DNA from: Blastococcus sp. TF02A-35
GTDB taxonomy: Bacteria > Actinomycetota > Actinomycetes > Mycobacteriales > Geodermatophilaceae
Reading direction: 5' to 3'
Length of the DNA stretch: 64,000 nucleotides
Assembly (NCBI RefSeq): GCF_004571075.1
Contig: NZ_SPQP01000005.1
Span: forward strand, 1-64,000
Shown piece after piece: positions 44,093 to 44,913 of the stretch. The notes beneath the pieces are model-generated. The model searched no databases, had not been told where the DNA came from, and saw nothing but the letters and a program-made list of their open reading frames with translations. Every line of letters starts with the position of its first letter. Position 1 is the first letter of the stretch. The position numbers were made by a program, and so were the translations under genes.

Positions 44093-44689
44093 TCAGGCCT
44101 CCACCTGGTCGGGGCGGGCAGGAGTGGCGCCCGGTCGGCGGTGGCCGAGCGCGTCGAAGCAGGTGGCGGCGACGTGCGCCCGCCACGCGGTGGTCTGGTC
44201 CTCCGGCTGGGCCGCGAGGGTCAGGACGGCGAGGGCGCCCAGGGCACCGATCACCCGGACGACCCGCTCCGGCGCGGTGGTCGCCGGGTCGACGCCGAAG
44301 GCCTCGAGGACGGCGGCCTCCGGGGACGCGTCCTCGGCCAGCCCCTCGCCGTCGGCCCGGGTCACCGGGGCGATCAGCAGGGCCACGAGTCCAGGGTGCG
44401 CCAGGGCGGCGTCCAGCACGACCTCGATGGCGAAGCGGTCGCGGTCGGCGCCGACGGGCAGCTGCCGGACGGCGTCGAGCACCCGGCGCGCGACGGTGGC
44501 GACCTGCGCCACGACGCCGTCGCGGAGCGCGTCCTTGGTCGGGAAGTGGTGCAGCAGGCCGGCCTTGGAGAGGCCCACGGCGTCGGCGACGTCCTGGATC
44601 GAGGTCTTGGCGAACCCGCGCCGGGCGAACAGCGCGGCGGCCCGATCGAGGATGCCCTCGTCGATCTGCTGCCGGAACGGTCGCGCCAC
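44093..44689 (-). CDS. TetR family repressor of the MMPL exporter
   Basis: The protein is 198 aa. The N-terminal helix-turn-helix spans about residues 27-50 (TSIQDVADAVGLSKAGLLHHF), and the rest is the variable ligand-binding helical domain. It starts with GTG. A perfect 21-bp inverted repeat 18-38 bp upstream of the start is almost certainly its operator, giving autoregulation of tetR-mmpl. The ligand is unknown. Confidence 0.92.
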   Translation of the reverse strand: MARPFRQQIDEGILDRAAALFARRGFAKTSIQDVADAVGLSKAGLLHHFPTKDALRDGVVAQVATVARRVLDAVRQLPVGADRDRFAIEVVLDAALAHPGLVALLIAPVTRADGEGLAEDASPEAAVLEAFGVDPATTAPERVVRVIGALGALAVLTLAAQPEDQTTAWRAHVAATCFDALGHRRPGATPARPDQVEA

Positions 44690-44706: not shown

Positions 44707-44727
44707 AACCGACCGGATCGGTCGGTT
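44707..44727. promoter_or_regulatory. TetR operator palindrome
   Basis: AACCGACCG-GAT-CGGTCGGTT is a perfect inverted repeat with 9-bp arms, located 18 bp upstream of the tetR start. CATAAC just downstream on the minus strand (44704-44699) could be the -10, so a bound repressor would block RNA polymerase. Confidence 0.8.
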
Positions 44728-44769
44728 TTCCGGACGAAGAGGTCGGTGCCGTTGGTCATAGCGCCGCGG

Positions 44770-44843
44770 TGCCCCCGGTCGGGGTCGAACCGACACTCGG
44801 ACCCTTTTAAGGGGCCTGCCTCTGCCGATTGGGCTACGGGGGC
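44770..44843 (-). tRNA. tRNA with anticodon UAA and short variable loop
   Basis: The minus strand folds into a full cloverleaf of 74 nt including discriminator A73. The acceptor stem GCCCCCG/CGGGGGC has 7 perfect pairs. The D arm has a three-pair GCC/GGC stem with an 11-nt loop CAATCGGCAGA. The anticodon stem GGCCC/GGGTC (one G-U) closes the loop CTTAAAA, so the anticodon is UAA (codon UUA, leucine). The T arm is GTCGG-TTCGACC-CCGAC. The variable region is only about 5 nt, whereas bacterial tRNA-Leu normally has a long extra arm; the D loop is nevertheless Leu-like. CCA is not encoded. TAGCGT at 44858-44853 could be its -10. Confidence 0.75.
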
Positions 44844-44913
44844 GCTCTGCGCACGCTAGCGCTCGCGGCCCGTACGGTGACCCCGCTGCCCCGTTCCCGC
44901 ACCGGAGGACCCG

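Follow-up and report, generated by a model that had tools for sequence, protein, structure and literature searches.

According to a 2023 review, tRNA-Leu carries a long variable arm everywhere except in animal mitochondria, and an earlier note on the DNA studied here, made from the letters alone, likewise started from the rule that all standard bacterial tRNA-Leu species are long-armed. What, then, is the cloverleaf with a UAA anticodon that lies on the minus strand at positions 44843-44770 of a 64,000-nucleotide stretch of the Blastococcus sp. TF02A-35 genome (the whole stretch analyzed, hereafter the window), and whose variable loop has five nucleotides? To the note it looked like a tRNA-Leu that had lost its arm, and it proposed that it may be charged with another amino acid, serve as a dedicated UUA decoder, or act outside translation.

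Anatomy, conservation, and neighborhood of the gene

The only tRNA that ARAGORN identifies in the window is tRNA-Leu(taa), on the minus strand at 44768-44843, and the Rfam tRNA model RF00005 matches 44843-44770 over 71/71 model positions with 53.9 bits, above the gathering threshold of 29 (E 8.3e-9). The gene (44770..44843, minus strand) begins with G1 at 44843 and ends with the discriminator A73 at 44770; at the 3′ end the DNA encodes CC, an incomplete CCA. Its stems are 7/3/5/5, with 7 bp in the acceptor, 3 bp in the D, 5 bp in the anticodon, and 5 bp in the T stem. The anticodon UAA (34-36; 44807..44809; ARAGORN anticodon position 35) sits in a CUUAAAA loop that includes A36-A37-A38, and the long arm is replaced by a five-nucleotide variable loop, CGAGU (44-48; CGAGT in the DNA, 44795..44799), which fits the class I consensus NNAGU. 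The D arm (44818..44834) consists of a 3-bp stem GCC/GGC, containing C12-G23, and an 11-nt loop, CAAUCGGCAGA (C13, A15, G18G19, A22), where the in-loop numbering, like the assignment of A20a, is our own. The fold, anticodon, loop length, and Leu-like D arm described in the earlier note are thus all confirmed. A73, A14, A15-U48, G18G19, and a Leu-type D loop (GGCAGA) are present together. Judged by these identity elements the molecule is a tRNA-Leu, and the five-nucleotide loop, C12-G23, and C13 separate it from class II tRNA-Leu. When the single RNA is folded, the minimum free energy structure is partly non-cloverleaf (z -2.1) and the centroid lies closer to the cloverleaf; such an outcome is frequent when a tRNA sequence is folded by itself.

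A DNA search of 40 relatives returned a match in 33, including 22/22 genomes of the same genus and 1/1 of the same family. The best matches in these 23 genomes are 88-97% identical, and ARAGORN types every one as Leu(taa) with a short loop, so that the tRNA is not a chance occurrence and the conservation proposed by the note as a check is found. The flanks of the tRNA diverge among relatives, while a -10-like element upstream is kept. In the window this putative element, TAGCGT, lies 9 nt upstream of G1 (44853..44858, minus strand). The motif TA[GC]C[GC]T, which was picked post hoc from the upstream alignment already inspected, occurs within 40 nt upstream (<=40 nt) in 24/24 genomes (its own, 22 of the same genus, and one of the same family) and in 41/4,800 control 40-mers from the same loci; its distance to the tRNA is 8-10 nt in 20 genomes and 21-24 nt in four. 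Across 87 unique short-loop UUR tRNA-Leu sequences (five more were set aside because they were off-register, fell between the classes, or could not be parsed), 1,733/1,740 stem cells are paired, and 77 of the class I UUR sequences contain more than one pair type at 18/20 stem positions; class II sequences pair at 597/600 cells (30 sequences). A score above the curated RF00005 threshold is therefore joined by compensatory stem variation, and neither the broken pairing nor the loss among relatives that would mark a tRNA pseudogene is seen.

Directly behind the tRNA, between it and a tetR gene (44093-44689, minus strand) and just upstream of the latter, is an inverted repeat, AACCGACCG/CGGTCGGTT (44707..44727), which is probably the operator of the TetR regulator and not part of the tRNA. 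Similar repeats lie downstream of the tRNA at loci L032, L037, L048, and L049. The twelve closest of 68 tetR relatives come from Blastococcus or Geodermatophilus; the tRNA is found in the 3-kb flanks of 5/68 tetR loci, all in Blastococcus, and we rejected tetR as a functional partner. A mobile-element origin of the gene is not supported by its phage matches, at 77-80% identity (13 records). Seven records of the plasmid collection match the window tRNA, three of them longer than 1 Mb.

Leucine tRNAs and leucine codons of the genome

The genome, 99.99% complete at 3.93 Mb in 87 contigs, contains 47 tRNA matches, every one of which was typed by ARAGORN at the fetched loci. Five are tRNA-Leu genes: those with UAA and CAA anticodons are class I, and those with UAG, CAG, and GAG are class II. 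The window gene is the only UAA tRNA among the 47; the note's whole-genome check for a normal tRNA-Leu(UAA) therefore finds none beside the class I gene, which is the only UUA decoder found there. Ranked by bit score, the UAA gene is 39th (53.9) and the CAA gene last (46.6), which indicates that both class I leucine tRNAs are atypical for the general tRNA model. Elsewhere in the class I tRNA set of this genome, C12-G23, C13·A22, and A15-U48 occur together in tRNA-Leu(CAA) alone. The latter gene (G000:C33:34374-34447, L140) has an unusual CCC/GGG D stem. Its acceptor stem is identical to that of the window gene, and this shared stem suggests that the class I pair arose by duplication. One leucyl-tRNA synthetase (LeuRS) was found above the cut-off, as two pieces of one 992-aa frame.

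The codon that this tRNA would read is exceptionally rare. In the window, TTA accounts for 1/17,194 codons of the open reading frame (ORF) set and 0/12,680 homologue-supported codons; the lone example reads as lying in the over-extended 5′ end of an ORF that we named greA-like by eye. The earlier note's remark that no TTA was noticed in the genes of the window is essentially right, holding for the homologue-supported codons and failing by one in the ORF set. Among 234,211 homologue-supported codons from four genomes (G000, G007, G017, G021) there is again a single TTA, aligned to a CTA leucine codon and located in a doubtful ORF extension. The same set holds 11 ATA and 70 AGA codons, so that TTA is the rarest of the three. 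The raw ORF sets, which come from a simple GC3 heuristic that over-extends 5′ ends, hold 6, 4, and 4 TTA codons in three same-genus genomes (~100,000 codons each) and 1 in a fourth set; most lie near ORF starts and are probably such over-extensions. From the 475 TTG, 58 CTA, and 15,103 CTG codons of the four genomes, ~1.8 TTA would be expected against 1 observed, so that the rarity of UUA is explained without extra avoidance. This rarity implies a tiny workload for the tRNA. It might serve chiefly for UUG, or in some unforeseen way, and the gene may be retained for a few UUA-containing genes, for UUG wobble, or for both.

Distribution of short-arm leucine tRNAs

We surveyed 296 Actinobacteriota genomes with patterns based in part on the general tRNA-Leu consensus. 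Either loop class could be matched, with class assigned from match length (UAA tallied by script, CAA by eye), and the pattern requires GCAGA in the D loop, so class fractions are valid for detected genes only. A UAA tRNA-Leu was detected in 115/296 genomes, as class I in 48 and as class II in 67. Class I forms occur in 14/42 families with a detection, and three families (f23, f32, f61) contain both classes. The CAA pattern matched 140/296 genomes, with a few clearly chance matches; by eye, 13 genomes carry class I CAA, in families f1, f30, f43, f45, and f83. For NAG anticodons, the fixed class I pattern, which detects 5-nt loops only, matched 7/296 genomes: five matches in f43 are tRNA-Leu(UAG) by ARAGORN, one in f61 is tRNA-Leu-like in the survey match, and one in genome G242 was dropped as chance-looking. 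Family f43 has mosaic leucine sets, with class II UAA in 7/7 detected genomes, class I CAA in six, and class I UAG in five.

Of 20 named genomes, 15 matched, and 12 of these have a class I UAA tRNA: Geodermatophilus amargosae, Umezawaea tangerina, two Pseudonocardia, Amycolatopsis suaedae, Agromyces cerinus, Microbacterium testaceum, Nocardia niwae, Rhodococcus sp., Mycolicibacterium sp., Tessaracoccus bendigoensis, and an uncultured Pseudokineococcus. Five of the 12 have class I CAA as well. Class II UAA was matched in the Streptomyces genome and in a Phycisphaerae genome, and the Nitrospira genome yielded class II CAA only. Mycolicibacterium, Nocardia, Rhodococcus, and Microbacterium are genera that use the standard code. 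Outside the Actinobacteriota, the fixed pattern for 5-nt loops detected class I UUR tRNA-Leu in 0/200 genomes from the phylum of Bradyrhizobium, 0/96 from that of a Verrucomicrobiia genome, and 15/119 from that of the Phycisphaerae genome.

Viruses carry the short form too. Rhodococcus phage Trina has a class I UAA tRNA-Leu beside a long-arm CAA, Streptomyces phage Yaboi a class I CAA, and cyanophage P-RSM6 and one gut phage a class I UAA; the tRNA-Leu of Sinorhizobium phage Phosso, with a 7-nt loop, falls between the two classes. At locus L323, from the same phylum as the Phycisphaerae locus L121, 21 tRNA genes lie within 3,044 bases, including class I forms of tRNA-Leu(UAA) and tRNA-Leu(UAG), an arrangement that resembles a phage or island array. 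On Bifidobacterium longum plasmid p1 (L308), ARAGORN calls a tRNA-Leu(taa) of the short-loop kind whose anticodon loop is odd, near a tRNA with a CUA anticodon; the gene table of this plasmid, which holds no RNA genes, has no feature at the tRNA site.

The rule from which the earlier note started is consequently wrong for bacteria, given class I UAA in 48/115 Actinobacteriota genomes with a detection, and the gene is no singular oddity. It is ordinary within its phylum; the surprise is the phylum's habit.

Alternation of the two forms at one locus

In 14 genomes of family f32 one set of conserved genes stands upstream of the UAA gene, with similar spacing and an unchanged orientation, in class I and class II carriers alike (13 comparisons against G264, a class II genome; the short contig L312 has two matching ORFs). 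Both forms occur within genera: among detected genomes, g133 includes three class I members and a single class II member, and g126 has each form once. The two forms do not differ in their acceptor or T stems, and the arms of the four class II genes are nearly identical. When the class labels are placed on a phylogeny built from four upstream proteins (13/14 f32 genomes), 4 changes are needed, 3 of them forced by well-supported branches, and the AU test rejects a single class II clade (p 7e-47; L315, a class II row, sits on a long branch). The two forms thus replace each other at one locus in this actinobacterial family. Class I would accordingly be read as an alternative to class II tRNA-Leu(UAA), and the shared locus is the strongest argument that a class I gene of the window type is still a tRNA-Leu.

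Core features that go with the short loop

We compared 123 unique parsed tRNA-Leu sequences, 83 of class I, 39 of class II, and one in between, drawn from the fetched loci with 60 long relative stretches omitted; a single genus supplies many of the 83, which are not independent of one another. The pair 12-23 is C-G in 83/83 class I and G-C in 38/39 class II sequences, and the exceptional class II sequence (L316) reads C-C because its ARAGORN start is one base early. The association of this pair with loop class has a Fisher p of 8e-33, a value that overstates independence among related sequences. Similarly, 13-22 is C·A in 83/83 class I sequences and G·A or A·A in 38/39 of class II. Class I loops of five nucleotides follow NNAGU, with A46 in 74/79, G47 in 76/79, and U48 in 77/79. 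Elements associated with leucine are retained across both classes: A15-U48 occurs in 81/83 class I and 39/39 class II sequences, and the class I UUR set has A73 in 82/83 and U8 and A14 in 81/83 each, the misses of the last two being L305 and L312, again sequences with an ARAGORN start one base early. Departures from the leucine set are C48 in 2/83 class I sequences and G73 in 1/83.

This rewiring is a sequence association, from which we infer a three-dimensional meaning: once the arm is gone, the D stem and the 44-48 loop would be re-matched to each other in a way that preserves the elbow read by LeuRS. C12-G23, C13·A22, and NNAGU at 44-48 would then compensate for the missing arm, the counterpart core of the long-arm form being G12-C23 with G13·A22 or A13·A22.

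Discussion

Taken on these sequence grounds, the window gene very probably encodes a functional class I tRNA-Leu(UAA), a leucine acceptor and neither a pseudogene nor a tRNA of other identity. Its conserved -10-like element suggests transcription from its own promoter, and since only CC is encoded, the CCA end would be finished post-transcriptionally. The identity review PMC9976931 reports that E. coli LeuRS needs A73, A15-U48, G18G19, and A20a and can dispense with the long arm, that armless tRNA-Leu variants remain active, that the human mitochondrial tRNA-Leu(UUR), which has no arm, is charged, and that TrmL recognises A35 and A36A37A38 of UUR tRNAs. All of these bases are present in the window tRNA, so that leucine charging is expected; from the conserved determinants and this published E. 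coli work, the single LeuRS of the genome would read A73 and the D-loop/T-loop elbow rather than a long arm. The anticodon predicts decoding of UUA and, by U34 wobble alongside tRNA-Leu(CAA), of UUG. In substance, the earlier note's idea of a tRNA-Leu minus its arm is upheld.

A tRNA of other amino-acid identity, by which UUA would be read as something other than leucine, could be argued from the missing arm held to be typical of tRNA-Leu and from an overall frame like that of other class I tRNAs, but A73, A15-U48, GGCAGA, and AAA at 36-38 are all retained, in f32 the class I gene sits at the locus where other members have class II tRNA-Leu(UAA), and in 12 named genomes of standard-code genera the pattern detects no UAA tRNA besides such a gene; we regard this as highly improbable. 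Slightly less probable still is a tRNA pseudogene or a non-translational tRNA-like RNA. Loss of a gene whose codon is almost unused might be tolerated, and its bit score is below that of most tRNAs in the genome, yet the score exceeds the RF00005 threshold with stems intact (a covariance check that the earlier note had proposed for this reading), pairing is maintained with compensatory variation across the homologues, the upstream region bears a -10-like footprint, and every congener examined (22/22) keeps the gene. The note's proposals of charging with another amino acid and of a role outside translation both lack support, given the retained leucine determinants and the f32 locus shared with class II. 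A dedicated UUA gatekeeper like Streptomyces bldA, in which a late-made or late-matured tRNA gates a few UUA genes by developmental stage, deserves more weight and is still unlikely. Extreme rarity of UUA speaks for it, as does the finding of no other UAA tRNA in the genome; against this, the TTA count fits the expectation from codon use, the TTA codons lie mostly near ORF starts and are probably over-extensions, and class I UAA tRNAs also occur in genera where we know of no bldA-type switch among the named genomes.

With the gene read as a class I tRNA-Leu(UAA), the alternation in f32 might reflect repeated independent loss or gain of the arm or two old alleles exchanged from genome to genome by homologous recombination at the tRNA site. 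The nearly identical class II arms, in carriers that form no clade, make exchange at least as likely as repeated conversion; the D-stem changes arrive as a package, and phages carry both forms, as Trina does. Identical acceptor and T stems within f32 would also be expected from independent local conversion, and we lean only slightly toward exchange. A broader proposal, on which our judgment is evenly balanced, is that the long arm is an optional module for each isoacceptor (UAA, CAA, even UAG) that flips at a fixed locus between close relatives, with each flip needing the core package to change (12-23, 13-22, and the 44-48 loop) and LeuRS indifferent to the outcome; phages would move both forms, and the short form may escape nucleases, toxins, or modification enzymes that grip the arm.

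Among known systems, canonical class II tRNA-Leu(UAA), including Streptomyces bldA, shares with the window tRNA the UAA anticodon, A73, a 3-bp D stem, a GGCAGA-type loop, A15-U48, and, in f32, the very locus, but differs in a variable region of 13-18 nt (5 nt in the window tRNA), in G12-C23 (C12-G23), and in G/A13 (C13). According to PMC9976931, metazoan mitochondrial tRNA-Leu(UUR) is also charged by LeuRS without a long arm, with identity set by A73 and A14; it is mitochondrial and has a floppy anticodon branch, whereas the window tRNA belongs to a GC-rich bacterium whose genome keeps class II forms for the CUN codons. Allo-tRNAs (8/4, 9/3) are, according to PMC7609411, likewise non-canonical bacterial tRNAs, many with sense anticodons, but their acceptor/T-stem lengths are altered and the window tRNA is 7/5.

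tRNA annotation databases can be expected to contain these class I sequences already. In the literature as far as it was accessible in our searches, short-arm leucine tRNAs surface several times: PMC6582537 has one short-variable-loop tRNA-Leu(TAG) in a mycobacterial tRNA cluster, and it and PMC11541572 (also mycobacterial) touch on short-arm tRNA-Leu with no general conclusion drawn in the portions seen, while two global tree studies of 2008 (PMC2265525, PMC2474678), note tRNAs for Leu, Ser, and Tyr with short arms in a set of 571 molecules, cases that they describe as takeovers by class I structures. Within those portions we found no statement that a chromosomal tRNA-Leu(UAA) is class I in Actinobacteria, and no phylum-wide class I UUA reader, core rewiring, or locus switching.

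The long-arm rule is thus broken, for the tRNA that reads UUA, by many actinobacterial groups, some planctomycetes, and several phages. The presence of both forms at one locus in close relatives is a natural experiment on the function of the arm, and it bears equally on how LeuRS and SerRS discriminate their tRNAs and on how a tRNA core is rebuilt after the arm is lost, with relevance to tRNA-targeting toxins and to the design of orthogonal tRNAs.
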